From: Isoetes taiwanensis
Lineage: Eukaryota; Streptophyta; Lycopodiopsida; Isoetales; Isoetaceae
NCBI GenBank assembly: GCA_021234155.1
Contig: JAJEKV010000036.1
Span: 1,806,777-1,870,776, forward strand
Length of the DNA: 64,000 nucleotides
Direction: 5' to 3'
The notes beneath the pieces are model-generated. The model searched no databases. It worked only from the letters and a program-made list of their open reading frames with translations, and had not been told where the DNA came from. Positions 1,785 through 52,578 of the stretch are shown here, one piece after another (positions within the stretch are counted from its first letter, which is position 1; each line of letters opens with the position of its first letter). Both the position numbers and the translations under genes were made by a program.

Positions 1785-3099
1785 TCAAATCTCACTGTTA
1801 GACAAAATTCTAGTTGATGAGTAAGCAAAGGACAGGAGTAAGTGAGTAAGCAAAGGATAGAGGGTCTCGAAAGAGAAATAATCGCGGCGGTCTTGTGATA
1901 AATTTCTTGTAATATTTACGCTATTAGAATATGGCAAATCTTTAACTACACTTACGAAGTCATTTACACAAATGATACAACTAGGTAACACTTGTGCTCT
2001 TGAAGACAAACTGAGCATCCAATCTAGATAAGTAGAAAGAAATTCGACTCCGCTTGAGGGGGCAGGTAGGGATCTCTCCCTCCAGAGATCTACATGCTGA
2101 CTCAAGGTGACTAGAGGGCCACTGCCCTTATTCGACTGAACCCACTGGAAAGTGAACACCACTCCACGGGTGTCGAGCCCATGCCTTGCCCGCACTCAAT
2201 GGCAAGCCATTAGACCTAGTCACAATGATCCCCGGTAGGCCTTACACACCAGAGGGATCGCTCAAGAGTCAGAACACGAACCTCCTTCTAAGCCAGTCTG
2301 GCCCCTTCACCCACAACCAGGTGTGGTTCTTGTACACAGGCCGAATCTACAGTGTGCTAGTGAGGCTAATCTAGGAGCATCAACTACCAAGCTTTAGGGC
2401 CTCTACCCCCCTTCCCAATACAAGGAGTTCACAGAGATACATCATCCATATACATCACAGAAGAACTAAAGAACTAGATCTAATCTATATCATAGAGTTA
2501 GGTCCTTTAGTTAGTGTCTGGGATCTGAGAATCTGGATGGCTACTATGGGCAATTTAATAGGCTAAACCTACTGATACAATGACTGGAAGACGGTTTAGG
2601 CTATTAAATTGACTAAATACCTGATCCTTGAGTTGCTCCTCCTGACCTGAGTTCGACCATCCTGCTGAACTGCTTGAAGATGGAGCTAACAAGGAAAACT
2701 AATGGTGCAATTCGCTCAGACAGAGTCTGGGAGGCGATTTTGACCCTTTGAGCGAGCAAAACAGAGCTCTAAAACCCTATGGACGAAAATAGCAAGTTAG
2801 GGTTTCCCTAACCTAAATAGACAAGGGGTAGGGTTTCCAATTATCCCTTTAAGCATGTGGGATAATTGGGTATGGCCCACTTGCCTTTAATGGCTAGGTG
2901 GCATAATTGTATCCACATGGAAAAGTGTGCACCTTAATAAATGTGCACATTGGTAAATGTGCACATTAATAAATGCACATACCTTGCAAGTTGCCCGCCT
3001 GGCTACACGCCGGCGTACATGTCAGTCGGGGTGGCGTGTACGCGTGACGGGGCAGTACAGTATACGTCCTGGGACCGTATACTGTGCTGGAACGCCACA
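1785..3099 (-). repeat. Candidate 3' LTR of the minus-strand chromovirus (left boundary not resolved)
   Basis: The right edge is defined. On the minus strand a polypurine tract is followed directly by TGTGGCGTTCC, the usual TG start of a Ty3/gypsy LTR, which places the U3 start at 3099. The sequence to the left is noncoding and repeat-like, with a duplicated GTGCACATTAATAAATG-type motif near 2930-2980. No terminal CA or target-site duplication could be fixed, so the left limit is approximate. The body does not visibly match the sequence to the right of 13131, where the partner LTR should lie. Confidence 0.4.
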
Positions 3100-3153
3100 T
3101 TCTCCCCACCTTGAAATGATGCTGTCCGCAGCATCGTGGGTCTCCCCACCTTG
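3100..3153 (-). other. Duplicated polypurine tract around a hairpin
   Basis: On the minus strand AAGGTGGGGAGA occurs twice, at plus positions 3141-3153 and 3100-3112. The second copy abuts the LTR start. Between them is a perfect 7-bp stem with a 4-nt loop (GATGCTG-TCCG-CAGCATC, 3118-3135). The tract next to the LTR is the expected primer for plus-strand DNA synthesis. Confidence 0.7.
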
Positions 3154-3990: not shown

Positions 3991-5574
3991 TTAATCTACA
4001 CAAATCGACATGCCTGAGCCGATTTCTTCGGAGATGACCTTGCCGTCCCATTGCTCCATAAATTGTGGGTACTGCTTCACTAGATCCTTCTTAAGTACCC
4101 ATGTCGCGTCTTCCACCAGCAAGTGCTTCCACTTGACCAAATACTGGAGAAACTCCGATCTCCTTGTTTTCTTGAAGGCTTTATCAAGAATCAATTCTGG
4201 AACTATTTCCAGCTGCTCCTCCGTCATTTCCAACAACGTTGGAGTGTCCAAGACTTCGTCTGGATTTGGAGTATGCTTCTTCAATAAACTCACGTGGAAG
4301 ACTTTATGAATCTTTAGGTGTGCTGGCAAGTCTAACTTGTAGGATTGATTACCTACTCTCTTGACTATTCTGAAAGGTCCAGCCCACCTTGGAGCAAGCT
4401 TCTTACAATTTCTGATGCGGAGCTTCGCCTGCTTCACTTTGATCTTGAGCCACACGTTGTCGCCAACTTCGAACTCCCTGACTGTTCGATGCTTGTCGGC
4501 GATGCTCTTTTGTCGACTCCTTGCTGCCAGAAGATATCCTCGAACTTCTTCTACCAGCTGCTGCATATCGGCCAACATCTGCTGCGAAACCTCTACTTTT
4601 GACACGGGATTGTGCCAAGTGTCTGGAGTTAGGCATTGGTAGCCGTAATTGATCATAAACGGCGACATTTGGGATGATTCCTGCTTGGTGCTATTATACG
4701 CAAACTCCACCAAGTGAATAAATTCTTCCCACATACCTTGCTTGTTCCAGACATAGTTTCGTAGCATATCCTCCAAAATCCTGTTGGTCCGCTCCGTTTG
4801 GCCATCCGACTGGGGATGATAAGCCGTGCTCATGGATAGCTTCGTCTGTATTGTCGCAAAGAGGTCTTGCCAAAAGGCACTCATAAACTTCGGATCCCTG
4901 TCGGAGATAATCTCCCTTGGCATGCCATGAAGCCTGAAGATTTCCTTGGTGAAGAGCTTCGCTGTATCCATAGCGGTGTCTGTGGTCCTGCAAGGCACAA
5001 AATGTGCCATCTTCGACAACTTGTCGACCACTACCATCAAGGCATCCTTCCCTCTTACTGTCCTTGGAAGCCCTGTTATGAAATCATTGCTGATCACCTC
5101 CCACTTAGCGTTTGGCACCGCTAATGGCTCCAATGCCCCTGGAATTCGAAGCTGTTCTGCCTTTGTCTGCTGACATAGCTGACATTCCTTGATGTAGCGA
5201 GCTACCTGCTTCTTCATTCCTGGCCAATAGTAGCTGCTGCGCACTTTGAAATATGTCTTCATGAATCCCGCATGGCCAGCTATTGGACTGTTGTGCGTGT
5301 CGTGGAGGATCAATTTCCTTACACCTGATGATTCGGGCACGCACAACTTGTCTTTATGGTATAACAGGTTGCCTTCCTTCTTATAATGTTTCAAGGCTTC
5401 CCGCTCTTTATCTGTTCTAGCCTCCCTAGAGAGGCTTGCCCATACTTCCTTGAAATCAACATCCGTTGGCAAGGACTCTTCAATCTTCTTACCAAAGTCG
5501 CTGGAGAGCGTCGAAATTGCATTGCAATGCACTCTAGTTGTCAGGGGATGCCTTGAAAGCGCATCCGCTACCAC
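3991..5574 (-). CDS. Ty3/gypsy integrase with C-terminal chromodomain (3' part of pol)
   Basis: About 527 open codons. From N to C: the end of the RNase H-integrase connection (VADALSRHP), an HHCC zinc-binding region (HDTHNSPIAGHAGF ... CQLCQQTK), the catalytic core with D in NDFITGLP, D in SDRDPKF and E in HPQSDGQTERTNR, a GPF/Y-type module (RWAGPFRIVKRVG), HKVFHVSLLK, and a chromodomain centred on QYLVKWKHLLVEDATW. Integrase inserts element DNA; chromodomains of chromoviruses are known to bias insertion toward methylated H3. Of the three canonical cage aromatics only the Trp of VKWK is clear, as in the variant chromodomains of many plant chromoviruses. A TAG at 5626-5628 separates this frame from RNase H, so its first Met is not the true start. 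Confidence 0.92.
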   Translation of the reverse strand: MVADALSRHPLTTRVHCNAISTLSSDFGKKIEESLPTDVDFKEVWASLSREARTDKEREALKHYKKEGNLLYHKDKLCVPESSGVRKLILHDTHNSPIAGHAGFMKTYFKVRSSYYWPGMKKQVARYIKECQLCQQTKAEQLRIPGALEPLAVPNAKWEVISNDFITGLPRTVRGKDALMVVVDKLSKMAHFVPCRTTDTAMDTAKLFTKEIFRLHGMPREIISDRDPKFMSAFWQDLFATIQTKLSMSTAYHPQSDGQTERTNRILEDMLRNYVWNKQGMWEEFIHLVEFAYNSTKQESSQMSPFMINYGYQCLTPDTWHNPVSKVEVSQQMLADMQQLVEEVRGYLLAARSRQKSIADKHRTVREFEVGDNVWLKIKVKQAKLRIRNCKKLAPRWAGPFRIVKRVGNQSYKLDLPAHLKIHKVFHVSLLKKHTPNPDEVLDTPTLLEMTEEQLEIVPELILDKAFKKTRRSEFLQYLVKWKHLLVEDATWVLKKDLVKQYPQFMEQWDGKVISEEIGSGMSICVD

Positions 5575-5625: not shown

Positions 5626-6260
5626 CTACATCCACCTTCGCTGCCTCAGGTTAAGGTGTGGTTGTGTGAATACATACTGGAGGCTCTGATGATCTGTATC
5701 CAATTGGAACTTCCTTCCCAAGAGATAGTGCCTCCAAATTCTTAATGCCCTGACAACTGCAAGCAATTCTTGATCGTGCGTGGGGTAGCGCGTCTCTGCG
5801 TCGTTCATCTTCCTGGAATCATACGCTACCACACGCTCTTTTCGCATGAGCACTTTTTGTGGCTATCTTACTCGTGACCGCCGCCACTAACTTGTCTTTC
5901 TCTCGGATCCGGCGGGGGTTAAGGCGGGCGGTTGTCAAAGCTTCCTTCAACAATTCAAACCACAGCGGGCTTTCTTGTGCCAATGCTCGCCCAATCTTTC
6001 ACCTTCTCCGCCCTCGTCAAAGTCCGTTAGGCGGGGCCGCTATTTTAGCAAAGTTCTTCACGAACTTCCCCAGTAGTACCTGCTAGGCCAAGGAAAACTT
6101 CGACCTCATGCACATTCTTGGTTGCCGCCATCGAATGATCTGGCTTCAATTTTGGCGGGATCCGTCCGAGATTCCTTCTGGCTGAGATCACATGACCCGG
6201 TATTCCACCATCTCCGTTCGCGGCGGACACCCGACAACTTGGCGTACAACTGGTGCCTCT
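5626..6260 (-). pseudogene. Corrupted RT thumb / RNase H segment of chromovirus pol
   Basis: RNase H end motifs are readable at 5626-5853 (VAYDSRKMNDAETRYPTHDQ, ELLAVVRAL, LDTDHQSLQY), then a TAG. Between about 5850 and 6260 the code is scattered over several frames: TDPAKIEA in one, FLGLAG in another, and the catalytic TDAS-type motif is unreadable. The flanking RT and integrase frames are open for hundreds of codons, so the indels are strongly clustered. The block is rich in CGGCGG-like and GGCGGG-like strings. Either this copy decayed locally or the assembly has a local error. The enzyme would be inactive as written. Confidence 0.8.
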
Positions 6261-7719
6261 TCAACTTCTCCAGCACTCTCCTTAAGTGTTGTGCATGCTC
6301 TTCAAGGGATCTGCTATACACCAGAATGTCATCAAAGAATACTATTACAAAGGTGTCTAAGAACTCCCTGAAGATGTCGTTCATGAGCCTCATGAACGTT
6401 GCTGGGGCATTCGATAAGCCGAAAGGCATTACCGTGAACTCATAGTGCCCGTACGTGGTCCTGAAAGCCGTTTTATGAATATCTTCTTCCTTTATCCAGA
6501 TCTGATGATAGCCTGACCTTAAGTCTATTTTGGAGAAGACTTTTGCCCCTTGGAGTTGATCTATCAAGTCATCTGATCTGGGGAGCGCATACTTGTTCTT
6601 GATGGTGTGCTTGTTCAACTGCCTATAGTCTATGCACATCCTCAAACTGCCATCCTTCTTCTTGACAAAAAGAATGGGCGCTCCAAATGGCGAGACACTA
6701 GGTCTAATGAAGCCTAGGTCGAGCAACTCCTGCAATTGCTTCTTTAGCTCTGTCAACTCCTGCATCGTCATTCTATATGGGGCCTTGCTCGTCGGCTTCG
6801 TTCCTGGTTCGAGTGCTATCTCACACTCGACTCCCCTATAAAGAGGGAGCTGCTTGATCTCATCTGGAAAGAGATCGCGGAACTCCGTGATCAAGTTAGC
6901 TACTTGCTTGGTTAACTTGCTGAGCCCCTTATCTTCCTTACCCTCTTCTGATTCGGGCTCTTGGATCTCGAGCTTGAAGATATATGCTACCTGCTCACTC
7001 TTTATGCACCTGAACAGCTGCTTGCTAGACATGCACTGCATAATGGGAACAACTTCTTTACTTGTGATCTCTATGATCTTGCCGTTGGGTGCTGTGAGGG
7101 TCACCTTGCGCTTTCCATAATCAATGAGAGCTCCTGCTGGACCAAGGTATTCCATTCCAACGATCAAGTCATACTTGCCAATGCCCATTACCTCTGCCCC
7201 CATCTGGATATTAATCCCTGGCAAGTCGATGTCGAAATTAATTCTCTTGCCTGCCGTCTGCCTTACTGCTCCACTTGCTAAGACGACGGGACTCGGCTTC
7301 GACTTCAGTGGTTTCAACTTCAACATTTCCACCATTCTGGGGGATGCAAAGTTATGGCTACTTCCCGAGTCTATCAGGACTATGAAGGACTTGGCCTTGG
7401 CCTTCCCTATTGTGGAAATTACCTTATACTGGTTCTCTGCTTGTCCTGTATCTATAGCGGCAAAGATATGACACTCACCCTGAATGTAGTCGCGGGCTGC
7501 CTCGCCGTCGTCGTCAGACGGAGTGTCCCAATCTCCCAACTCCGCTAGCGCTGCACTCATGACGTAGGAGCAGTTCGCTGTCCTGTGGCCTGGCTGGAAA
7601 CACCTGAAGCAAAGCTGCTTTTCTATGCACTCCTGCCTCTTTTCCTTGGGCATTGCCTGCAAAAAGGACTGCACTGCTTTGGAGTAGTTTGATCCCTCCT
7701 GCTTGTCCTTGAAAGACAC
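6106..7719 (-). CDS. Gag zinc knuckle, aspartic protease and reverse transcriptase of the chromovirus
   Basis: Open frame with a CCHC knuckle ([15 protein letters not shown]-x2-C-x4-H-x4-C), a retropepsin-like site ([11 protein letters not shown]) and a complete RT palm: [64 protein letters not shown], and catalytic FFDD in [11 protein letters not shown]. These process the polyprotein and copy element RNA into DNA in the particle. Order and motifs are standard Ty3/gypsy. The frame is joined to upstream gag by a frameshift near 7710 and runs into the corrupted segment at about 6250, after which the last residues are out-of-frame noise. Confidence 0.92.
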
Positions 7720-8791
7720 TGCTTCTTCTCCTGCTGCTTCCCTTGGTTGCCACTATATGGGGCTCTAGCTGGACCTGGGCTGGCTGCCCTAGGACTATAA
7801 CTCCTTGTTGCCTTGCCTTTATCCTGGTAATACTGTTGCCTCTGCCCGCTATTCTGAGGTCCCGTCCCTTGCAAACTTATTGCCTTGGATTCTGCTTCTG
7901 ATACTGTCTTAGGGTTTATTGCCCTTACAAGCTTGCGGATCTCATCATTCAGCCCTTCAATATAGCTCTCCACTGCATGCTTTTCACCCAACTTTGGCAC
8001 ATAAAGCCTTAGTCTCATGAATTCCTCTGTATATTTCTGGACTGATTTGTTGCCTTGCTGCAACCTGTAGAATTGCTGCATCATGCTGGACTTATATTCC
8101 CTTGGGACGTAATGGCGCGTGAAAGCTTTAGCAAACTTTCTGAACCTGCAAGCATCCCTGCTTAAGCCATGGGCCTTGGTATACCCTTTCCACTAAATGC
8201 GTGCTGCTCCCTTCAGGTTGGCTGTTGCCACCCTGCCTTTATCCTTGTCTTTCATACCATAGGCGTTACCATACTCACTCATTTCATCGAGCCAAGCCTC
8301 TGCCTCCACATGCCTGACCTGTTTTCGCCTGAGAATTGCTCGAGTTTCCTGGCCTTCCATACGTTTCCCAATGCTGAATCTACCTTCTTCTGGTAATCAG
8401 AGGCTTTTGTGTCCCTTTGCCGTCCATCTGTGGCGTCCCTTTGCCTTCCATCCCTACGGTCCTGTGCCTGCTCTTCCTCTCCCTCGGAGTCGGAGTCTGA
8501 GTCCGAGCTTGAATCGGAGGATTCCGTGCTGGTGGACCTCCTTCTCTTGCTCCTCCTCTTGTCCTTCCCCGTCTTCCTAGGTGGTGCTTCCGGCAATTGG
8601 ACATTGTTGTTTGGGCCACTCTCTGATTGTGCTGCCAAGAAAGCCTTTATCTGCTCGAGGTCCTCCTCTGGGGACATTGCGCCGAATGCTTCATACAGGC
8701 TCCTTGCCGGGGGTGGTCTAGGCGGGGTCTGTTCTTCCCTAAAGTCTCGTCGTTGTCGTTCCCCTGAGCCTGGGCCTCTAGCTGCATACAC
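7623..8791 (-). pseudogene. Gag (capsid/nucleocapsid) of the chromovirus, frameshifted
   Basis: The N-terminal part (8791-8279) is Arg/Pro-rich, then has a basic patch (KDKRRSKRRRSTST) and an Asp/Ser/Glu run (SSDSSSDSDSDSEGEEE) with a small duplicated DGRQRD unit. The capsid-like core follows in another frame: AWLDEMSEYG, LKGAARI, then TRHYVPREYKSSMMQQFYRLQQG and VQKYTEEFMRLRLYVPKLG, a typical retrotransposon gag signature. Lesions: a frameshift near 8290, a TAG for an expected Trp near 8195, and a frameshift near 7710 before the zinc knuckle. No in-frame ATG lies between the upstream TAA and the start of the N-terminal frame, so the true start is lost or uses another frame. Confidence 0.75.
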
Positions 8792-8955
8792 AAGTAGGTC
8801 ATGGCCTTACGGTTAGCTTTATTTATTCTCTTGCATTATATGTTTGTTGGTATAGTTGTGGAAGAAAATACGTCAACAAAACATTTAAAGTGCAAAAGAA
8901 ATTATATTTATATTATATAATATCTTAATACAACGCCCCCGGGATCAAGAGTCTA

Positions 8956-10482
8956 CTATTCTTGAAATCGCCGGTAGGATGGGTTATCTTCGAGGAACTT
9001 CTTAACTTGGGTCGTTCCTACCGAGCGTCCCAAGTTCCTGAGGAAGTTGGTTGATGACCCGCCCTGCAAAGCTCTCACTAATTCCTCTACCCTGCGGTCA
9101 AAGGTGTAAGCTGCGGTCACTGCCAGTCTTCCCTGCCGTCGGTAAGGTATGGCAAAGTCGAAGATATCGAGTGCCATCGCTCTCTTGACTAAGATGGCAT
9201 AGTCGGTGTTGGCAGCTAGCCGAGCATGCTGGCCAAAGCCTGAGAGCGCGATGAGCATGAATACTCCTTCCTCGCCCCTAGGGGTGAACTTGCGGTGAAT
9301 TACCGCTATTCTCCCGTCCAGCAGCAGGGGGAGATAGTATCGCAGCGACTTGTCGTTGTGCGTCATTGTTGATTCTTCGCCTCCTCGGCCACCAGCTCTG
9401 TGTCTCCCGGCATATTCGTCGACTTCCACCTCGATGAGCTCTCTGTAATCTCTAACTGTTGCTGAAGCTCGCCTGAGGTCGAACTCGCCTCTTCTCTCTG
9501 TGGGGGCTGGTGTCGAAGAGCTCGGCATTAAAATGTTTGAGCTCTTGCCGCGAATTCCCATCTGTTCCTGGATGGCGTAAAACTCCTCTTCGGTCGGCAG
9601 TTCCCGAGCTTCCATCATCTGCCTGATGTTGCTGTAGGCTTGGATGTCGGAAGTCGACTCTCCTGTGTAAGTGTCGGCTTCTCTTACTTGAAGTGGGAAG
9701 TCGGAAGCTCCCCGGACGACGAAATCATCCAGGTCTGATTGCCGCAGTTGGTGCAGCAAATCATCGAGTCGATATTCCCGTTCCCTGCATTCGGGAAGGT
9801 TCTGGATGTCACTGAGGAGCAGGTACTCCTCGACGTCGACGATGATGGGGGCTAGGCTTGTGATACCTAGCCCAAGGGGTGGGGCGATCCTGAGGGTTTG
9901 CCGGCTCCGTTCGAATTCCTGCAACTCCTGCTCTGCTAACCGCTGCTCTTCTACTGGATCGAGCTCGACGTAGTCCTCTTCTTCTGATTCTTCATCTCCT
10001 GCTCTTCCTTCTCGCTCCTGTTGGTACTGCAAAAGGAGCTGCTCCGCTGCTGAGGAGGCTAAGGGATCCACATCCATGGGAGGGGTAGAGGTTTCCCCCA
10101 TGGGGTTTTCGGCACGGTGGGAGAGAAAAATTGCTAAGGCGGCAATGTAGGAAAAATATTTGGCCCTGTCAACTGTCAAGATCATGTAGTCTGGCAACCT
10201 CTGGGCCTTGTTGGTCAGGTATTTGGCAATGTTTGGAACATCACCCAAGGCTGCTTGAAGGGATTGCCTGGGAACAAAATAGCATGTGCAAGGGGGGAGC
10301 TGCACTAGGGATGGTCCTACCCTAGCTTGGAACTCGGACAGAACTTGTCTATATGCTGGGGTTGCGTGCAGAGTGGCTTGGACATCTATTTCTCTCCGGA
10401 AGACTCGGAAAATGTCATTGACATCGGCCTCGGCAGCATGGGCACTGGCGCTGTACCATCGCCTGAAGTCAGCAGTTGCCAT
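8956..10482 (-). CDS. Unknown accessory protein of the chromovirus (508 aa)
   Basis: Uninterrupted minus-strand ORF starting at the ATG at 10482 (MATADFRRWYSASAH) in good context (GATCCATGG). I do not recognise a family. Visible features: a mostly helical N-terminal third with an alanine-rich helix (YFSYIAALAIFLSH, about residues 110-125); an acidic segment near residues 160-180 (DEESEEEDYVELDPVEE); a leucine-rich middle (VEEYLLLSDIQNL); and a C-terminal region rich in Arg, Leu and Ala. No signal peptide or clear membrane span. It lies between the H3-like ORF and gag on the same strand, preceded by its own TATA-like box and a 67-bp hairpin. Unlike gag, RNase H and the H3 ORF it has no lesion over 508 codons, which may be chance or selection. 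An envelope, chaperone or structural role cannot be separated by sequence alone. Confidence 0.7.
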   Translation of the reverse strand: MATADFRRWYSASAHAAEADVNDIFRVFRREIDVQATLHATPAYRQVLSEFQARVGPSLVQLPPCTCYFVPRQSLQAALGDVPNIAKYLTNKAQRLPDYMILTVDRAKYFSYIAALAIFLSHRAENPMGETSTPPMDVDPLASSAAEQLLLQYQQEREGRAGDEESEEEDYVELDPVEEQRLAEQELQEFERSRQTLRIAPPLGLGITSLAPIIVDVEEYLLLSDIQNLPECREREYRLDDLLHQLRQSDLDDFVVRGASDFPLQVREADTYTGESTSDIQAYSNIRQMMEARELPTEEEFYAIQEQMGIRGKSSNILMPSSSTPAPTERRGEFDLRRASATVRDYRELIEVEVDEYAGRHRAGGRGGEESTMTHNDKSLRYYLPLLLDGRIAVIHRKFTPRGEEGVFMLIALSGFGQHARLAANTDYAILVKRAMALDIFDFAIPYRRQGRLAVTAAYTFDRRVEELVRALQGGSSTNFLRNLGRSVGTTQVKKFLEDNPSYRRFQE

Positions 10483-10594: not shown

Positions 10595-10604
10595 CTATTT
10601 ATAG
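10595..10604 (-). promoter_or_regulatory. TATA-like box upstream of the unknown accessory ORF
   Basis: The minus strand reads CTATAAATAG, about 115 nt upstream of the ATG at 10482. The identical decamer lies about 100 nt upstream of the H3-like ORF. A TATA box at a plausible distance before each accessory ORF suggests separate internal transcripts. No transcription start is visible. Confidence 0.55.
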
Positions 10605-10788
10605 AGAAGGGGGAAAACCCTAATTTTCGGGTGACTTGAAAAACTCTTGGGGTTGGCCAATTCTAGCCTATGTTGAGGTCCAAATGGGAGTTGGAAGACT
10701 AATTTGAGGGTTTGAGCATGACTGGATTATCTAAGAAACGCAACAAGCTAGAGATCAATTGGATATGCTATGGTGGAGAAAATGCTAG

Positions 10789-10855
10789 GTCTCACACGTT
10801 GCGCCTCGTTCAAAAACTGGAGTTTTGTTTTTAGACCAGGAGGGACGTGTGAGAC
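10789..10855. repeat. 67-bp palindromic hairpin, copy A
   Basis: The outer arm GTCTCACACGT pairs perfectly over 11 bp with ACGTGTGAGAC; the inner part of the arm has diverged (CCAGGAGGGACG). The loop holds CAAAAACT and AGTTTTGTTTTTAG, which can form an inner stem. It differs from copy C at about 3 of 67 positions. It lies downstream of the H3-like ORF and about 185 bp upstream of the TATA-like box of the next ORF. Confidence 0.85.
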
Positions 10856-11131
10856 ATCTGCTCTATTTTGGTCAAAACTTATCCAATTTGGTTGATCTAA
10901 GGGTCTAAACATGCTAGGCTCATCGAGTTAGGCAGAATTGACCCCTTACTTGGTCAATTTGGAGGAGATTTGGGCAACTTTGGGCAAGGTCTCACTATTT
11001 TTTCTAGAGATGTCCTATTTTAGTAAAACAAAAGCTATTACATGCTAACTCAACTTATTTAAGCAAGATTACACATATAATCTATTCAAAATTCTTTTGT
11101 TTTAACAAAATTTTCATTATTTACAAAATTT

Positions 11132-12456
11132 CTAATGGGGATCTCCCTTGATTATACTGGCCAACTGCATGTCCTTCCTCATCAGAGTTACTCGTTTGGC
11201 ATGCACGGTGCAGGCTGTAGAGTCTTCAAAATGCTGCACTATCTTCTGCTCAGCTGCTTCCTAAAGTGCCAGCAGCATCTCGTCTGTTACCCTCATGCCG
11301 GTGTTAAAGTCCTGCATCACTTCTCTGACTAGACGGGCAAAGGGGGCACGAGGGATTAAGGGGTCGTAGCTGCGCTGGAAGTGTCTGATTTCCCTCAGTG
11401 CTCTTCTCTCGGTCTCCTTCCTGCTGGCTTTCTTCTTGGCTGGCTTCTTGGGGGGCTTGGGTTCTGTGGTGGCAGCCTTAAGGTCTGCTGCTTTGTTGGA
11501 CGTCCACCCTCGACAATCCTGACCCTGTTCTCCTGGTAGTAGGAGTTGTAAGCCTCCCACTTCTTCATGTAAGCATTGTGTTCCCTCATCTTCCTCTCGT
11601 AGGTCTTGATGGGGTCTGTCACATAGGATTCTCGGGCAGTGCGTGGCTGTTTCTTCCTGTCCCAAGTCGGATATGGTGGGGGCTTCTGCGGTTGATCCGG
11701 CTGCTCAGGGTCGGGTTGCTCCTGGTCGGGTATTGCCTGCTCATCACCTGGGGGTTTAGAAGAGCTTCCACCCTCGGTGTTGGGGTTGAAGTCTTCATCT
11801 TCTGAGTCGTCGGAGGAGGACGGGGGCTGGTCAGCTGGCGGTTCGGTGATGACGACCTTGGGGTTGGGGGTCTTTCTTCACGGAACTTCCTTGAGTTTCC
11901 TTGGGCCCACCACAAACTTCCCCTTCTTCTTCTTCAGTTCTTCGGCTTCTTTCGCCTCCTCCTCTTCCCTCTTCCTCTTCTTCTCTTCCTTCTTCCTTTC
12001 CCGGCGACGTTCTTTTGCTTCGTGCTTTTTAATCCACGCCGCGAGGTCCTGTGCTTCACTTGGCTCAAGCTCGGGAGTCGGCAGTCTCTTTTCTTCACTA
12101 GCCTTGGTTCTCCTTTCTCGCTCTGCTCCCTCCTCTTCCTCTTCGAGCAGCTCTGTCCCTGCATCTGAGTGCACCTCCTCTTCTCTCTCCTGTTCCTGTA
12201 TTTCTCGCTCTATTTCTTCGTAGACGTCCTTGGTCTCCTCATCCATGGAAGTTGGTGGCGTAACATCTTCTGGGTCCAGCTGCTGATTGAGGATGCCAAT
12301 CAGCTCGGATGTGTCTTGGTCCCCTGAGATGCTCTCCTCGCTCGAAGATGGTCGATCTCCTCTCGCGACGAGCCTCTCCCGAAGTGCCTCGTGGATTAGG
12401 GCACTGGGGGTTTCGCCTGGGCGAGGCTTCCTGGCAGTCTGTTTGGTTCTCGCCAT
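11132..12456 (-). pseudogene. Retrotransposon-encoded histone H3-like protein: exact H3 tail start, long charged linker, H3 fold
   Basis: Starts at an ATG in good context (AACATGGCG) with MARTKQTARK, identical to the start of histone H3, then Pro instead of Ser10. A linker of about 340 residues follows: acidic stretches, a Glu/Lys/Arg-rich probable single helix (about residues 80-190), an acidic DDSEDEDFN patch, a Pro/Gln-rich part and a Lys-rich lead-in (KKPAKKKASRK). The last 89 codons (11401-11135) align without gaps to H3 47-135: [29 protein letters not shown], then [15 protein letters not shown], ending at the position of the H3 C-terminus. R49, R52, R69, R72, R83, C110, H113, K115, T118, K122 and D123 are kept; R63 is Pro and K79 is Asn. 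RHFQ, LIPRAPF and TLMRKD recall plant CENH3, but loop 1 has canonical H3 length. Lesions: TGA at 11878-11880, a one-base frameshift near 11495-11515, and TAG at 11261-11263 where H3 has Gln93. A processed H3 pseudogene does not explain the linker or promoter context. Confidence 0.9.
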
Positions 12457-12556: not shown

Positions 12557-12566
12557 CTATTTATAG
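12557..12566 (-). promoter_or_regulatory. TATA-like box upstream of the H3-like ORF
   Basis: The minus strand reads CTATAAATAG, about 100 nt upstream of the ATG at 12456 and about 100 nt downstream of hairpin copy B. It is identical to the decamer upstream of the neighbouring accessory ORF. Confidence 0.55.
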
Positions 12567-12667
12567 CTTGGGCAATTTTAGGTCAAAATTGAAGTTGCTC
12601 TATTTAACGTGCCAGGGCACCTATTGACTTAAAACATACACTTATTTCAAAGTTTTTATAAGCACTG

Positions 12668-12734
12668 GTCTCACACGTTGCGCCTCGCTAAAAAACTAGA
12701 GTTTTGTTTTTAGACCAGGCGCGACGTGTGAGAC
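12668..12734. repeat. 67-bp palindromic hairpin, copy B
   Basis: Arms GTCTCACACGTTGCGCCT and AGGCGCGACGTGTGAGAC form an 18-bp stem with one mismatch. The loop can form a second stem (CTAAAAAAC with GTTTTTAG). It differs from copy C at 2 of 67 positions although the flanks are unrelated. It lies about 210 bp upstream of the H3-like ATG. Confidence 0.9.
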
Positions 12735-12859
12735 ATTGTACATTTTTGATTAATTTTCATGATTGAAACATACTATTCTAACTAAATCTTACCTTAGAAC
12801 TCGACTCACCATGTTACTTTTCTAAAATTCATGAAGTTTTAGGGTGTTCTTGGCCCAAT

Positions 12860-12926
12860 GTCTCACACGTTGCGCCTCGCTCAAAAACTGGAGTTTTGTT
12901 TTTAGACCAGGCGCGACGTGTGAGAC
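12860..12926. repeat. 67-bp palindromic hairpin, copy C
   Basis: Third copy, with the same 18-bp stem, 192 bp from copy B and about 190 bp from the primer binding site. It lies in the element's 5' leader upstream of the H3-like ORF. Confidence 0.9.
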
Positions 12927-13117
12927 CACCTTGCCTTAGAAGGTTTTGGCTCACTGTTTTTAGTCTTATTATGTTCCAATTCAGTTAACTGTTACTAGCT
13001 TAGCATAAACTACAAAAATGGGAAAAACTTTTCCCACTTTTCGAGGTTTGAGGATCCTATCAAGTTAGTACTACTGGGAGCATGGTCAGTGCTTTGCTCT
13101 TGGTCTCCAAGAACATT

Positions 13118-13129
13118 GCTCTGATACCA
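13118..13129 (-). other. Primer binding site of the chromovirus
   Basis: The minus strand reads TGGTATCAGAGC, the complement of the 3' end of initiator tRNA-Met used by many plant LTR elements. It lies one base inside the LTR end (GACGTCACA), which fixes the 5' LTR boundary at 13131 and the minus orientation. Confidence 0.85.
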
Positions 13130-13130
13130 C

Positions 13131-13330
13131 TGTGACGTCCCCTACTCGTATACGGTGCATTCACCGTATACAATCAGGAGTTCATCCCCCATACCAGCTC
13201 CATACTGATACAGGGCCCTCCACATGTCACTGCACCCGTAAAGAGTCCCAGTGGGAAGAGTGAAGGGGTCATTTTACCCTGTCTCCCTCAGGGAACAAAC
13301 ACCAACAGAATGAGCCAGCTCAGAGCAATG
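13131..13330 (-). repeat. 3' end of the 5' LTR of the chromovirus (right boundary unknown)
   Basis: Plus-strand reading starts TGTGACGTCCCC next to the primer binding site, so on the minus strand the LTR ends GGGGACGTCACA. This is an imperfect inverted match to the other LTR's start, TGTGGCGTTCC, as expected of LTR termini. The rest of this LTR does not visibly resemble 1785-3099, and its outer end is not seen. Confidence 0.5.
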
Positions 13331-23273: not shown

Positions 23274-25440
23274 ACATTAACGTCCGTGAGGCCCCCGGAC
23301 TTGTGTAGCATCCTGCGAGCTCCCATAGGGTGCTGCCAGCAAACAGACGCATAGGTTTTATGTAGCCATCTAGCGGGCTTCACTTGTTCTTTATATATTA
23401 CCCGCATCGTGTTTATATCTGGCTTCTTGGCCATACACAAATGCATCGCTATCAACAGTTTTGAACTGTACTTTGTGGGCTTCTCTGATCCGCCTCAACC
23501 GTGCTTTTCAGATTATTAGCCCTCTCTCTTTGTGCACCCCCCGGTGTCTTATTATCATTTCTTTTATAGCTTTCGCTATATCTGTGAGTGTCTCTTCTTT
23601 GTCCATCAGTGCTGGGAGTGGGAGATCCCACCTTTGTTAAATTTGGACCTTATGTGTCGTTGTAAACCGGGCACTCCTTTACCATGTGCTCTTCGCCTTT
23701 CTATTTTTCCCCGAGTCACATACTTTCGACATATTCTCTCTGCTCTATCTATTTTCCTCCATCTATCTTTCTCAATTCGAGGTCGTGGCTTCCCATCCCC
23801 GAATCCGCCGGCGTTCCCCATTTTCTTATTCAACGTCTTTGCTTTTGTATGTGATATGCCCTATCTCGTCCCCCACGGATTGAAGGTTTCCAATAGCCAT
23901 TCTGTCTTGGGTCCTGTGTGTCGTGCCAGCCAGTTTCTCATTGCTTTTCCTGTCCATTCTTCGTCCCATCCATCTGCTTGTATAATCTGACTTAGTTGCA
24001 TCCCCATATTTGTTTGTCCATTTCGCCAATTAGTTAAACCATCCCTTGCCCATTTGTTATGTGTCTTTGTTTCTTTGATTCATCTATCGCTATTGACGAC
24101 AGTTTGTCCTCCTTCCCATAGCTATTGTCCTTTATTAGGTATCTAACTGTTCTTTCCCAGGCCCTCACTTCCATTGGCTTTTCCCCCGTCTCATATAAGA
24201 TTGTTGCCAATGATGTACCTGTCTTCATCTGGAATTCCTGTCCGTGCCATTGCCTCAGTATGCCTTCTTGTTTTTCCCATTTCTTTTCTGACAGACCTGG
24301 TCTCCATGTCTCACATCCGTACAACTGTGTTGATGCTACTATCGTGTTGAATAGATATGCTTTGATTTCCCAATTGGTGATCCTGTTGTTGTTGGAGTAA
24401 TTCATCATGATGTAATAATTGCCTATTGCTGCTTGGAATCTGGTATCTGCTCCTCTTGACCATCTCCCCCCTCCATGTGTGTCGTACCCCAGATACCTAT
24501 ACCCTGTGGCTTCCTCCAGTTCCTCCCCCTTGTATCTAAATGGCCTGTGTTTTATCTTTGTCCCGAAGGTCACTATTTTTGTTTTTCCCAAGTTGACTGT
24601 CAGTCCTGTCTCCTCACAAAATTCCTCTAGTATCTCTAGCATTCTGTGCATCCCTTTGTTTTTGGTAGCCATCATACCTAAATCATCTGCATATAGCATT
24701 ATTGGGACTTTTGTTTTCCCTATCATTGGTGCTTCACTGTCTCCCTGTCTTTCCCTGACAAATTCCTGTAGAGCATCTATGTATATCCCAAATAGTGTGG
24801 GTGATAGTGGACAGCCTTGTTTAACTCCTGTATCGCATTCTATGGCTTCTCCTCCCTCCGCTGTTTTGGCATACACCTTTTGGTATAGCCTTGCGATTGA
24901 TCCCACTAACCCTTCTGGTGCTCTCAGTCCTATTAGCCTAAGTAGAAATTTATCTCTAGGCACTGTGTCGAAGGCTTTTTTAAAGTCCACAAAGCAGCAT
25001 ATGATCTTCTTGTTATTCTCCTTTGTCTGCTCTATCATTATCCTTAGAGTCACCAAATGGTCCGTGGTCGAATACTCTGGTCGAAAACCTGCCTGACCTT
25101 GTGCTCTGAGCTTCCCTTCTTCTGCCCACATTTTCAGTTTTTGATCCAGCATTTTCCCAAACCATTTCGCGAATACTGAGCTGACCATAATAGTCCTGTA
25201 ATTGCTCGGTTCCTCCTTGTTTCCTCCTTTGTGCAGCGGGATTACCTTGTTAAACTGCCATCTTTCCGGAAGACCCAAATGTACTACCTCATTGAATATT
25301 TCTGTTACAATCCCTATTATCTCTGTTCCTACGCACTTCAGCATCTCTGCTATAGCCTGTTATTTGGTATTGAATGGCTGATAATCAGTGATGCTTCTCC
25401 CATGGATGCAACTAATCCTAGGCTTTGCATAATTTAACGT
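23217..25440 (-). mobile_element. 5'-truncated LINE with reverse transcriptase ORF and (TATTC)n tail
   Basis: The main frame (25344-24034, 436 codons) is a non-LTR RT: FNKVIPLHKGG, SNYRTIMVSS, AGFRPEYSTTDHL, CCFVDFKKAFDTVPR, GVKQGCPLSPTLFGIYID, catalytic YADD in LYADDLGMM, then LGKTKIVTFG, YRYLGYDTHGG and STQLYGCETW. Downstream code continues in other frames to about 23470. No endonuclease is present: the element begins near 25440, about 170 bp from the PPR start, as expected for 5'-truncated insertions. The short tandem-repeat tail instead of poly(A) recalls RTE-type LINEs, but I cannot fix the clade. Confidence 0.85.
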
Positions 25441-25610
25441 AACAAATACAAAGACAAATTTCACAGGATCCTCCTCGGGCCCTCGGGGATCCCACACCAC
25501 AGACATCTCGGGGATCTGGTACAGTATATTTTCCACGCTGGGAGGAATTATCTCCAGGAAAAAGAGAAAATACTGAATGCTTCAAACGCATAATTCCGTT
25601 TGAATGCGTG

Positions 25611-27329
25611 ATGCTAGCAACAGGAATCCCTGACCCTCAAAGGGTCATTTTGGGCGAGGAGAATAGAAGAATCACAGCGAACTATGTGCAGGAGTCGACT
25701 CGCAGGAGATCAAGTTTTGGTGGTTTTTGGCAGGAACCTATTCCCCAGATTGCTCAACGGGATTCAGATGAGTACATTTACTTTCTTCGCCAGGGTAACT
25801 GGAAAAAAACTTTATCAGATGGGAAGTTTATTCATGCCCAACTTATTCTTTCTGGCATGCATAGAGATAAATTCCTCGGTAATCTTCTCCTGGATATGTA
25901 TGGAAAACATGCGGCTCTATATGCTGCTCACTTAGTCTTTCTGGCCATTCTTCATCCCAATGTAGTCTCGTGGAATATCATACTTGCAGCTTATGCCCAT
26001 TGTTGCAGGTTAAATGAAGCTCATTACTTGTTTGATATAATGCCTATCAAGAATGTCATCTCATGGACTACCATGATTGCAGCATATGCCCAACAGGAGC
26101 CCTTGAAAGCTATCCAGTTGTTTCAACAGATGCAGCAGGAAGAGATTTCGCCAAACAATGTTACTTTTGTTAACATTCTCAATGCATGTGCCAATGCATC
26201 AGCGTTTCCTGAAGGTAAGCGTATTCACTCTTGGACTGTAGATGCCGGATTACATCCTGATGTAGTTATCAGTACCGCCCTTGCAAATATGTATGGGAAG
26301 TGTGGAAGCTTGGGAGATGCGCATAAAATTGTTAGTAGCTTCCATAAGAAAGATGTGGTCTTGTGGACTACCTTAATTGCAGCATATGCAAAGGATGAGA
26401 ATGTCAAGGAGGCTCTTCATCTATTCAGACAAATGCAGGCGACAGGGTTACAGCCAGATAGAGTCACATGGTCTTGTATAGTGGATGCATGTTCCAATGA
26501 TCAGGCATCTTTTGCTGAAGGAAAGCATATTCATTCCCAAATTTTACATGATGGCTATGGTACAGAACTTGTTATAGGGAATGCACTTTTGACTATGTAT
26601 GGAAAGTGTAACAGCCTCAGACATGCAGATGCCGTCTTTGAAAGAATGCCTAAGCATGATGTAATTTCGCTGTCTTCTTTGATTGCAGCATATGCTGAGC
26701 ATGGTCAAGCTAAGGAATCCATTTCATTATTTCAACATATGCTAGAGGAGAACATTCTGCCAAATAATATAACATTTGCAGGTGTCCTTGATGCATGTGC
26801 CAACCAAGCAATTCTATGCGAAGGCAAGCGCATTCATGCCCATGTAATACACAACGATCTGGCATGCAATGTTGTTATTGGAGCTGGCGTTATCAACATG
26901 TATGGTAGGTGTGGAAGGTTGGATGATGTACGTTACGCTTTTGATCAAATAATGGAGCAAGATGTGGTGCTCTGGAATGCCATGATTGCAGCATATGCAC
27001 AACATGGTTATGGTGATGATGTACTGGGTCATTTTTTCAAGATGAAACTGCATGCCATGCGCCCAGATTATATCACATTCATCAGCATTCTTTCAGGGTG
27101 TGGTCATACTGCATTAATGGATGAGGCCTTTGAAAATTTTCTTTCTATGATTGGAGATTACCACATTACACCTGTAGTGGAGCACTGTAACTGCATGGTT
27201 GATCTTCTTGCTCGTGCCCAATGGTTAGATGAAGCTGAAGATCTTACCAATAGCATGCCCTTTCATGGAACTTCAAAATCATGGATGACCTTGGTTCTTT
27301 CTAATAGGACATATACTGATGAACTGTGA
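25611..27329 (+). CDS. PLS-class pentatricopeptide repeat (PPR) protein
   Basis: Intronless ORF of about 572 codons from the ATG at 25611. PPR proteins bind organellar RNA and act in editing, splicing or processing in plastids or mitochondria. About 12-14 degenerate 31-36-residue repeats are visible, with the recurring PLS pattern GK.IH..., ...NMYGKCGSL.DA, DVVLWTTLIAAYA, EALHLFRQMQ, and PD.VTW..., from about residue 70. The end (HCNCMVDLLARAQWLDEAEDL ... SWMTLVLSN) matches the last repeats before where an E domain begins in related proteins, but the ORF stops 8 residues later. No E, E+ or DYW domain follows, so it is probably a truncated PLS protein or needs a partner for editing. No clear transit peptide is seen. 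The LINE 5' end is about 170 bp upstream and may reach into the promoter. Confidence 0.9.
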   Translation: MLATGIPDPQRVILGEENRRITANYVQESTRRRSSFGGFWQEPIPQIAQRDSDEYIYFLRQGNWKKTLSDGKFIHAQLILSGMHRDKFLGNLLLDMYGKHAALYAAHLVFLAILHPNVVSWNIILAAYAHCCRLNEAHYLFDIMPIKNVISWTTMIAAYAQQEPLKAIQLFQQMQQEEISPNNVTFVNILNACANASAFPEGKRIHSWTVDAGLHPDVVISTALANMYGKCGSLGDAHKIVSSFHKKDVVLWTTLIAAYAKDENVKEALHLFRQMQATGLQPDRVTWSCIVDACSNDQASFAEGKHIHSQILHDGYGTELVIGNALLTMYGKCNSLRHADAVFERMPKHDVISLSSLIAAYAEHGQAKESISLFQHMLEENILPNNITFAGVLDACANQAILCEGKRIHAHVIHNDLACNVVIGAGVINMYGRCGRLDDVRYAFDQIMEQDVVLWNAMIAAYAQHGYGDDVLGHFFKMKLHAMRPDYITFISILSGCGHTALMDEAFENFLSMIGDYHITPVVEHCNCMVDLLARAQWLDEAEDLTNSMPFHGTSKSWMTLVLSNRTYTDEL

Positions 27330-49745: not shown

Positions 49746-52578
49746 CTATAGACCAATATGTAATCTATCCCTAGGACTAGATAGGTGCAACATCATTCTT
49801 GGTGATGTGTTTGCAAACATATCTCCTAGAACTGGTTGTATTTCACATGATGCAGGAATGGATCTGGTGGACGTTAGATTTGGTAAAGACATTGTTTGTG
49901 AACGAAACACCATATCTACCATCGATGGTGTTTGGTAATCACGACTCTGGCCTTCAACAGAATCCCCTCGGGTGGTTGCCCGCTGTTGGAAGTGGGAGCT
50001 CTGTGCAGACAATGCATATGCCCTCCCAGACCTTTCATATGCCTGCCTGTTTGCCATTCTAGCTTGGATCTCATCAAGCTCATTATCTAATGCAATGGAT
50101 AGGTGATCAACAGCCAAAAAAGCAGCAGATCTTCTTAAGGCCATCTTTGCTCCCCGCAGAACTTTCCTTGCACCAGAAATGTCTCCAGCATCTGCCAACG
50201 ACCCCGCTTCTGAAATTGCTTGAGCAGTTTGAATCCTGTTCCTTTGTCTATCAACCTCAATATTGACAGTATGACCATCTCCAACACAGCTTGGTCTGGT
50301 GATAGAAAGAGCATGTTCTAGGGTAGCTTTACATTCATTGGAGACGGGGTTCTTGTATTTGCTTTTCACTCTTATAACTGGCCGTTCTTCATCATGAGGC
50401 ATATCCAATGTAGGAAGTTTGATCTCTAATAAAATGTCTCGCTCCTCTTCTGCATATAAGTCGCCTAGTTTCACAGAGCCAAATGTGCCTTGATCGTCTA
50501 AATGAGTCTCATAAGTTCCAGCCTGAATAGACTTCAGCGTTGCACCCTCTAACTCAACGGAAATAAATAACTGAGCCTCCTGTACAACCACACTAAGCAG
50601 GCCACCTATGCATTGGGCAAAGGCATCCTGCACAGCCCCCTCTGTCTGAATGAATGAAAACGTCCCACCGGACAATTGCGAAATAGAATGCATAATAACA
50701 GCATCATGATCAGCTCCAAACCCAAATGCATGAACAGGAATTCGCATCTGCCCAGTTTGTGTGGTTCCTCTAAGAGACTCCGGTACTAGGTAATGATAAT
50801 CAGCTCTTCCACATGAACCAGAAAGAGGCAACTGACCTCTTATGCCCATGCTATAAGTGTCCTGCCCATCTGAAAGCAACATTATGCTGGAAACTGGGTT
50901 ATGGTCTTGACGTTCATCAAGCACTTTTGCACCTTTTCGTAGTCCTTCGGCAATATTTGTGCCACCTGTAGCTATTAGTGCATCAATCGCTCGCAAAGCT
51001 AACTGCTTTCCTCCTCCAACCATTTTTCTTAAGGGGAAGACTCTTCTTGCTGTAGAATTAAACACAACTATAGAGAGGCGATCTGCTGAGCTAAGGTTAT
51101 GGATAACAAAATCCATAGCACGCTTAAGGAGGACAAGCTTCGTGCCAGCCATGCTTCCACTCACATCAAGCACAGTCACAAGATCAATTGGTGCTCTTTT
51201 GCTGGGGTCTAAAATCTGGGGTGAAACATCCAAAGAACTTGAAGTAACATTGAAATTCATTGTGTGGCAGTGAGGACCAATCATATTCCTATTTCTTTGA
51301 ACGTTGGAAACAACTTCATAGTTCTGATGTTTCAACTTTCTATTGGCTGCTTTAACATGAACAAGGACTGTGAAGCTCTCAAGCTCAGCTGAATATAGAA
51401 CACTTTCTAACTCCGCACAACAACGTAATTCAAGCTCAAAGTCAAGCTCAAAGTCTGTAGAGCCTTCATGAGGTGCCAAATTACTTACAGATTCTCCCTC
51501 GTCTTGCTCGGATTCAGCTATTGCAAGAGCACTGCTGCTTGCACCTCCAGTTTCTACAACACCAGTTTCCAAAACTTCAGTAGCTAGATCTTGGGAGGGA
51601 AAATTAATAGCACATGTTGGTTGGATGTGTTTCCTTGCATCTGTCTCGCTGATCAATGGTTCATCATCATTGAAAATATTTGGTTCTGGAGAATTGCTTC
51701 TGCGTATACCACGGGCACGTGCAATGGATTCATCAAGGATGCGGAGAACAGGATCCAATCTTTGCACCTCTTCTTCAGCTTCCAAAGTCCCATTTCCATT
51801 TGAACCATGCTGCACAGATACTCCAGGGCTTAAAGTATTGCTTCTTGGTGACCTTGCAGCTCCCTTTAAATATTTTGGTGCCTGCTGCGGAGCTTGCCAG
51901 GGAACTTCATTCCACTTTGCCCTGCAAACAGGGCAGATCAAGTTCCCATGCCTAACACTGGCTGCTATACACAAAAAGTGAAATGTGTGGGAACATTCAG
52001 CTGTGAAAAGTGCACGTCCTAGCCCTGGTTTCATGACTTCCAAACATATGGCACAGGTGCACTATATAACAAGAAACCACATCATTCAGAATATACAAGC
52101 AAGAGATTGCATTACCAAACATGTGAAACTCCATATAAAGTGCAGATATTCATGCTCAATTCAACTATCAACTTTCAAATTTATTGATAACTGATCAGAC
52201 CCAGCAAAATAAGCTAGAATATCTTTAAAATGAAAATTTTAAGATGCACCCGTTATGGCATTCTCTTCAATGCAATGATTCTACAGAGTGATGTTAAGAA
52301 CTTGAAGAAAACCTCATCTTTTTTACTCTCGCTTTTTCATCACATACCCGGGAGAAGCGAAAGCTACGAAGAAGATGCAGCCGTGAAGGCGACCTTGTAG
52401 GTGTGAAATTTGCAGGAGATAGTGCAGAAGCTGTATCTGACATGCTTACTCTAGATACTTCTGTACTCTGGTAACCAGCATCAGAGCTTCGAGTCAATGC
52501 ATCATCTGTTTCTAAGGTTGAAGTTAGACACATATGCTGCTGAAGTGCCATCCTTGCTTTTCTCCAACCATTTGCCAT
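49746..52578 (-). CDS. RING-H2 / VWA E3 ubiquitin ligase, WAV3-like
   Basis: Two coding exons: exon 1 52578-52327 (ATG at 52578, MANGWRKARMALQQHM) and exon 2 52061-49746, with a 265-bp phase-0 intron (GTAAAA ... TATAG). The protein is about 855 residues. RING-H2 at the junction: CAIC, CSHTFHFLC, CPVCRAKW. A complete VWA domain follows with MIDAS motif DVSGSMAG, a downstream Thr (ATGGTNIAEGL) and Asp (LLSDGQDT), then a Vwaint-like C-terminal region. Arabidopsis WAV3-family proteins of this layout are E3 ligases that affect root gravitropism. All zinc ligands and MIDAS residues are present, so it is probably functional. The start at 52578 is chosen because MANGWRKA resembles the family N-terminus and no upstream in-frame ATG is evident. 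A 5' untranslated exon may exist. Confidence 0.92.

Follow-up and report, generated by a model that had tools for sequence, protein, structure and literature searches.

The 64,000-nucleotide stretch of the Isoetes taiwanensis genome analysed here (the window) contains, on its minus strand, a Ty3/Gypsy chromodomain LTR retrotransposon that carries a gene for a variant of histone H3, and this element almost certainly represents a multicopy family with the same cargo. The internal region of the family begins with two extra genes, the H3 variant and a second gene (ORF2), placed ahead of gag and pol, and the H3 fold is under strong purifying selection. The central claim of the original prediction, that a retrotransposon encodes a histone H3, holds in a stronger form than was claimed. 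As possible functions, the prediction had suggested that the histone could package the DNA of the element, mark its chromatin or steer integration. It had not anticipated ORF2, the TATA motifs ahead of the added genes, the frequent V at tail residue 9, the leaning of the fold to plant CENH3 or the second set of H3-like loci, closer to canonical H3, in the genome. The presence of H3 in the window element is far beyond chance, because 149 further matches to its fold were listed in the genome and all 20 copies of ORF2 that were fetched have the fold at the same place. The explanation that we favour as a whole, with a probability of roughly 0.5, is an H3-bearing family of LTR retrotransposons whose H3 would enter nucleosomes and shield new copies.

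Read along its own strand, the window element consists of a 5′ LTR remnant, a primer binding site (PBS), the H3 gene, ORF2, gag, protease and reverse transcriptase (PR-RT), an integrase with a chromodomain and a partial 3′ LTR. The order of gag, PR, RT and then INT, as found with Pfam, is that of Ty3/Gypsy elements, and a chromodomain at the C-terminus of the integrase is characteristic of chromoviruses. Of the 5′ LTR (13131..13293, minus strand, as are the parts that follow), just the 3′ end is left, the rest being missing or displaced, and it was recognised by blastn with the ends of the 5′ LTR from seven further copies, to which it is 87-96% identical. The PBS, TGGTATCAGAGC (13118..13129), was read from the sequence; we take it to be of the initiator-Met type common in plants, and the exact motif follows the 5′ LTR in 14 of the 20 other copies as well. 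Downstream of the two extra genes, the gag region (7623..8803) has a broken frame and matches Retrotrans_gag (8.7e-8) and Ty3_capsid (1e-7), both on 7623-8084, and the PR-RT region (6106..7719) matches RVT_1 (7.1e-35) and RVP_2 (1.3e-7), with zf-CCHC_2, at 0.1, below its cut-off. The integrase (3991..5574) matches Integrase_H2C2 (1.5e-20), rve (1.3e-8) and, at residues 458-510, Chromo (5.6e-9). A polypurine tract (3100..3110), read from the sequence at a position that matches those before the 3′ LTR in L014, L022 and L025, precedes the 5′ part of the 3′ LTR (2056..3099), which is 87-93% identical to the 5′ LTR of L010, L014, L015 and L019. As both of its LTRs are truncated, a search for an LTR pair within the window found none. 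Rfam gave 0 matches on the window. Elsewhere in the window, translations read by eye include a 436-aa open frame resembling a non-LTR reverse transcriptase (24034-25344, minus), a PPR-type gene (25608-27329, plus) and a RING/von Willebrand-type gene (49746-52043, minus).

The H3 gene (11132..12456, minus) encodes an H3 tail start, an acidic/basic insert of about 300 aa and an H3 fold. As had been predicted, its frame starts at 12456 with MARTKQTARK, and its last 89 codons (the fold, 11401-11135 on the minus strand) align without a gap to H3 residues 47-135, through the end of H3, with about half of the residues identical (46/89, counted against a hand-typed vertebrate H3 sequence). The fold matched the Pfam family Histone (PF00125) with E=1.1e-27 and PDB H3 chains at about 1e-25, its in-frame TAG being read as a residue in both cases. 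The prediction also described a single minus-strand ORF; tail and fold are both present, but the window copy is not one open frame, as it carries two stops, a TGA (11880-11878) and the TAG of the fold (11263-11261), and a frameshift that lies somewhere from about 11500 to 11440. The gene does lie, as was stated, inside the gypsy element and on the strand of gag-pol, which it shares with the gag, PR-RT and integrase-chromodomain regions recognised with Pfam.

An intact natural version of the gene was found in another copy, L043, whose 444-aa ORF begins with MARTKQTARKARPGEST, continues with an insert of about 300 aa and the H3 fold, and ends in KGERP (RGERA in H3), stopping at the normal end of H3. 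Its protein matches Pfam Histone with E=1.5e-28. An intron between tail and fold, which was considered, is not needed, since L043 is open throughout. The H3 fold, including the alpha-N helix, has no gap relative to canonical H3, and L043 retains all of R49, R69, R72, R83, C110, H113, K115, R116, T118, D123 and L126, which we take to be the residues of H3 involved in DNA contacts and in the H3-H3′ bundle. Among the 19 folds analysed, five have K or Q in place of R49, and no other listed residue is altered in more than one copy. The AlphaFold model of the H3 fold alone was weak (pLDDT 66); a lone H3 often gives a weak predicted structure.

The genome holds at least 85 scored copies of ORF2, the window's included, 43 of which have no inner stop (counted by eye). 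Twenty of the other 84 were fetched, as a non-random sample made up of top-ranked copies with a preference for those free of stops, and the H3 fold was found directly upstream of ORF2 in all of them (20/20), fragmented in two (L010 and L013). The prediction had called for further copies that share the linker and stand next to gag-pol, and these copies supply them. A scan of the genome with the H3 fold gave at least 150 scored matches, the window's included, out of 9089 candidates; they are spread over 75 contigs, an inner stop is absent from 132 of the 150 listed, and 25 belong to frames of 400 aa or more without a stop (both counted by eye). Such frames, together with the intact L043, answer the further call for open frames in other copies. 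Among the matches listed, H3 lies within 4 kb of ORF2 in at least 33 of the 85 copies, against 0-1 in five shifted controls, and most of the 150 folds have no paired ORF2. In all 20 fetched copies and in the window copy, the frame from tail to fold is broken. A long stop-free frame is not in itself proof of a tail in frame, because in L023, which is among the 25, 447 codons are open and yet the tail begins in another frame; L043 is the sole one of the 25 to have been read and found intact. At one locus (C1032:11104022, 11105700 and 11107382), three element-type H3 folds stand in tandem on one strand, in steps of 1.68 kb.

The hallmarks of LTR retrotransposons are found in these other copies. 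Paired LTRs, 89.6-98.6% identical, were detected in 8 of the 14 copies examined, with the aligned part covering 1.1-1.3 kb rather than the whole LTR in three of the eight (L013, L016 and L025). Five of the 14 (L010, L015, L018, L023 and L027) had no LTR match in the fetched stretch, and L024 was left out since its match reaches the end of the stretch. The length of the LTR, measured in six copies, is 1.49-1.58 kb. In L022, for instance, LTRs of 1507 and 1485 nt are 94.6% identical and have the paired TG...CA ends of such repeats (TGTGACG...GTCACA). Exact 5-bp target duplications flank two of the three copies in which both ends are readable (GGCAG/GGCAG in L022 and GGTCC/GGTCC in L021), and in the third, L012, the duplication matches at four of five bases; none was recognised in L014, which has a degenerate 5′ end. 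Downstream of the H3-ORF2 pair, PR-RT was present in all six copies examined and the integrase-chromodomain region in five of them. In L014 (1536-2096, element orientation) and in L030, the flanking sequence that precedes the 5′ LTR is repeated 3′ of the 3′ LTR, with 98.6% identity in L014, perhaps as a consequence of a nested or duplicated insertion. The case that would have spoken against the prediction, a lone processed H3 gene, with target-site duplications of its own or a poly(A), that happened to land in the element, is ruled out, given how many copies there are, the constant place of the gene between PBS and ORF2, the LTRs on either side and the selective constraint on the fold.

Selection was estimated from 19 folds, two of the 21 copies (L010 and L013) having been dropped for a broken fold. 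The median dN/dS of the fold is 0.065, and all of the 117 usable pairs lie below 1 (54 of the 171 pairs were dropped for an unusable dS); the figure is a rough one, because synonymous divergence is near saturation (median dS 1.03). In a pooled comparison with L043, in which some of the tail rows are out-of-frame matches, pN/pS was 0.17 for the fold, 0.22 for residues 1-12, 0.50 for residues 1-45, 0.52 for the main insert and 0.35 for its last part. The constrained parts are, then, the fold and the first residues of the tail, and the position of the stop codon after the fold is also conserved among copies. ORF2 is under purifying selection too, with a dN/dS of 0.129 (190 pairs from 20 copies, L009 having been dropped).

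What the gene retains of the H3 tail is its first eight residues, ARTKQTAR, the remainder of the normal tail being replaced by the insert of about 300 residues. The start of the tail is readable in 13 of the 20 fetched copies, with K at residue 9 in six of them and V in seven, one of the V9 copies also having W for R at tail residue 2. K9 is present in the window copy and in L043, and its retention in six of 13 readable tails does not fit a simple story of K9 loss. By eye, no K27 or K36 context was seen after residue 9, and no K27-like ARKS context was seen in L043.

The second extra gene, ORF2 (8956..10482, minus), encodes 508 aa and is intact in the window. No match to it was found in Pfam, PHROGs or PDB, and its AlphaFold model was useless (pLDDT 31.5). 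Beyond the I. taiwanensis genome, one relative was recovered, on a 2007-base Logan contig, with 48% identity over 99% of the protein (8000 candidates sharing the most words were scored). As the best matches of this relative in I. taiwanensis are 51-52% identical, ORF2 is present in at least one other source. Each of the two genes is preceded by the TATA motif TATAAATA. The first (12558..12565, minus) lies about 110 nt 5′ of the H3 ATG and is also found in 18 of the 20 other copies, the site in L020 being outside the scan; the second (10596..10603, minus), at a near-fixed distance from ORF2, has a counterpart at almost the same site in 19 of the 20. An AT-rich, TATA-like stretch also lies 5′ of gag in 19 of the 21 rows compared, one of which is the window's. 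In addition, a 70-nt imperfect palindrome, whose arm motifs recur in many other copies of the element, is present at 12859..12928, at 12667..12736 and, 5′ of ORF2, at 10788..10857. Separate mRNAs for the added genes are likely, because ribosomes scanning a single LTR transcript past two genes would hardly reach gag.

Regarding the origin of the element H3, its fold leans towards plant CENH3. In the H3 phylogeny that the prediction had proposed, eight element folds formed one group, nearest plant CENH3 (83/87, with hand-typed references and a long branch). Once the fold of L044, a canonical-like locus, was added, element and plant CENH3 stood against canonical H3 with 95/94 (88-column alignment, hand-typed CENH3 rows, long branch); L044, of which 83 residues were read, grouped with canonical H3, and holding the element folds together with it was disfavoured (p-AU 0.042). 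The element also shares REIRHFQ, LLIP, T.E.LLALQEAAE and RVTLM.KD with the CENH3 proteins of Arabidopsis and rice. Unlike plant CENH3, it lacks the lengthened loop 1 (the element fold is gapless against canonical H3, whereas these two CENH3 proteins are longer there), has the canonical ARTKQTAR start and contains the insert of 300 aa. As the CENH3 rows were typed by hand, the alignment has 88 columns, the branch is long and loop 1 is not longer, we treat the possible relationship to CENH3 as a lead.

Canonical H3 used as a query of the genome returned 15 host H3 genes (96-98% identity) and at least 135 further loci at 71-86% identity, on 67 contigs, many of them in long open frames, with stop-free frames of up to 567 aa (e.g., L044, C1053:6001483-6001731). 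Among the matches listed, none of these 135 canonical-like loci is less than 1 kb from an element fold and none has an ORF2 within 6 kb. When the fold and the final portion of the insert were used to query proteins of about 241-766 aa, 17 matches were obtained, which cover 47-65% of the searched region, mainly the fold. Nine of them, from ENA assemblies, resemble the element protein in that a long insert separates an H3-like tail start from an H3 fold: P0008, P0012 and P0013, of 710-711 aa, P0001, P0003 and P0005-P0007, of 337-362 aa, and P0009 (cluster sizes 1 to 121). These insert-bearing proteins are possibly other multicopy carriers of H3; the folds of the four that were included in trees (P0001, P0003, P0006 and P0012) lie apart from those of the element. 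A search with an alignment of the H3 proteins was swamped by canonical-fold proteins, many of them long gene models (best 120 of 3995). No relative was confirmed when viral contigs were scanned with ORF2, P0012, the integrase, the H3 alignment and the L043 protein. An origin in giant viruses was set aside on the same result, an absence that does not exclude one.

The favoured explanation can be set out in steps. Each extra gene would be transcribed from its own internal TATA promoter. The element H3 would then pair with host H4 and form nucleosomes on the nuclear DNA of the element, before or just after its integration; we put the chance that it is a nucleosomal H3 of this kind at about even. 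Such nucleosomes would keep the active K4 region and might bear fewer of the usual silencing marks, since the tail after residue 9 is replaced and V9 is present in seven of the 13 readable tails. In this way, the histone of the element could shield new copies from silencing by the host, an anti-silencing role that we propose tentatively and regard as less probable than nucleosome formation itself. Both steps are deduced from which residues are kept and which are lost.

Several other explanations have to be weighed against this one. A targeting histone is a possible, though rather unlikely, alternative: an H3 derived from CENH3 would enter or mimic centromeric or heterochromatic nucleosomes, on which the integrase chromodomain or ORF2 would dock, leading to insertion in a preferred compartment. 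The grouping of the element folds with plant CENH3 agrees with it (95/94, and 83/87 in the earlier tree), as do the integrase chromodomain, which by hand alignment lacks two of the three cage aromatics in the manner of group II chromodomains, and the contact between a CR motif and CENH3 modelled for a wheat element (PMC12786077). However, the fold lacks the lengthened loop 1 of the two plant CENH3 proteins compared, the tree rests on hand-typed CENH3 rows and has a long branch, and the 150 scored folds are dispersed over 75 contigs. It is unlikely that the H3 has instead taken on a new role inside the particle, as a basic packaging protein that binds DNA or RNA, and forms no nucleosomes. The long, charged insert and the adjoining ORF2, itself under purifying selection, would suit a virion cofactor, but selection is strongest on the fold and weaker across most of the insert, and the residues that make nucleosomal contacts in H3 are largely kept. 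We also considered a more elaborate form of the favoured explanation, in which a CENH3-leaning H3 that has kept ARTKQTAR and lost the later silencing sites would wrap the element DNA with host H4, and the integrase chromodomain and ORF2 would recognise that histone, giving the element a private chromatin that both escapes silencing and is recognised as its own at integration; taken with all its parts, this form is improbable.

Two further readings are very improbable. That the H3 sequence was captured and is carried as a passenger, with no function, would agree with the many broken copies and with the lack of an open tail-to-fold frame in the 20 fetched copies and the window, but it is contradicted by the constraint on the fold (dN/dS 0.065), and the lack of an inner stop in 132 of the 150 listed folds, the conserved stop position and the intact natural ORF also speak against it. 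Similarly, the H3-ORF2 pair might be another mobile or viral element that lies beside gypsy by chance. Each gene does have its own TATA motif and palindromes, the window has two truncated LTRs and no LTR pair, and most of the 150 folds lack an ORF2 partner among the matches listed; nevertheless, in complete copies the pair is enclosed by matching LTRs with target duplications, after the PBS and before gag-pol, and the viral-contig scans with ORF2, H3 and the integrase confirmed no relative.

That selection has preserved the H3 core suggests that part of the chromatin of a mobile element can come from the element itself. The silencing of mobile elements acts largely through marks on the H3 of the host, and this layer could be bypassed by a retrotransposon with an H3 of its own that selection maintains. 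If so, the family would offer a natural test of which residues of the H3 tail silencing needs, and the plant group II chromodomain would gain a candidate ligand in its histone.

LTR elements that have captured a gene are a known kind. Plant LTR retrotransposons with additional ORFs, such as the orchid Ty3/Gypsy elements that encode an AlkB-type demethylase (PMC12786077), likewise combine Ty3/Gypsy with a captured cellular gene of plausibly epigenetic function. In contrast to them, the captured gene of the Isoetes family is a core histone with tail and fold, and it is accompanied by a second gene, ORF2. A term search of the main text of a 2020 review of plant additional ORFs (PMC7264820) gave no occurrence of “histone”. 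With the plant chromoviruses that carry a group II chromodomain, as presented in the sections of PMC3350952 used here, the element shares the PR-RT-INT-chromodomain order, the 5-bp target duplication and the PBS. By the definition given in those sections, group II chromodomains lack Y24 and usually Y48, and the chromodomain of the window integrase appears to lack both (hand alignment against HP1). Unlike these chromoviruses, the Isoetes element has two extra genes before gag and LTRs of about 1.5-1.6 kb, and no histone gene appears in the same sections. The mechanism of the group II chromodomain is reported as unknown in the relevant passages of PMC12786077 and PMC3350952.

Within the open-licence PMC literature, searched by titles and the starts of abstracts and exclusive of preprints, no LTR element encoding H3 was found, and a core histone with both tail and fold maintained by selection in such an element did not turn up. 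The nearest parallels in other genetic parasites are the viral histones, namely the H4 of bracoviruses and the histones of Marseilleviridae and Medusavirus, which are likewise core histones in the genome of a parasite. These belong, however, to DNA viruses, whereas the element described here is a retrotransposon whose H3 has a long insert after the start of its tail; if our reading is correct, parasite-encoded histones extend from DNA viruses to LTR retrotransposons.
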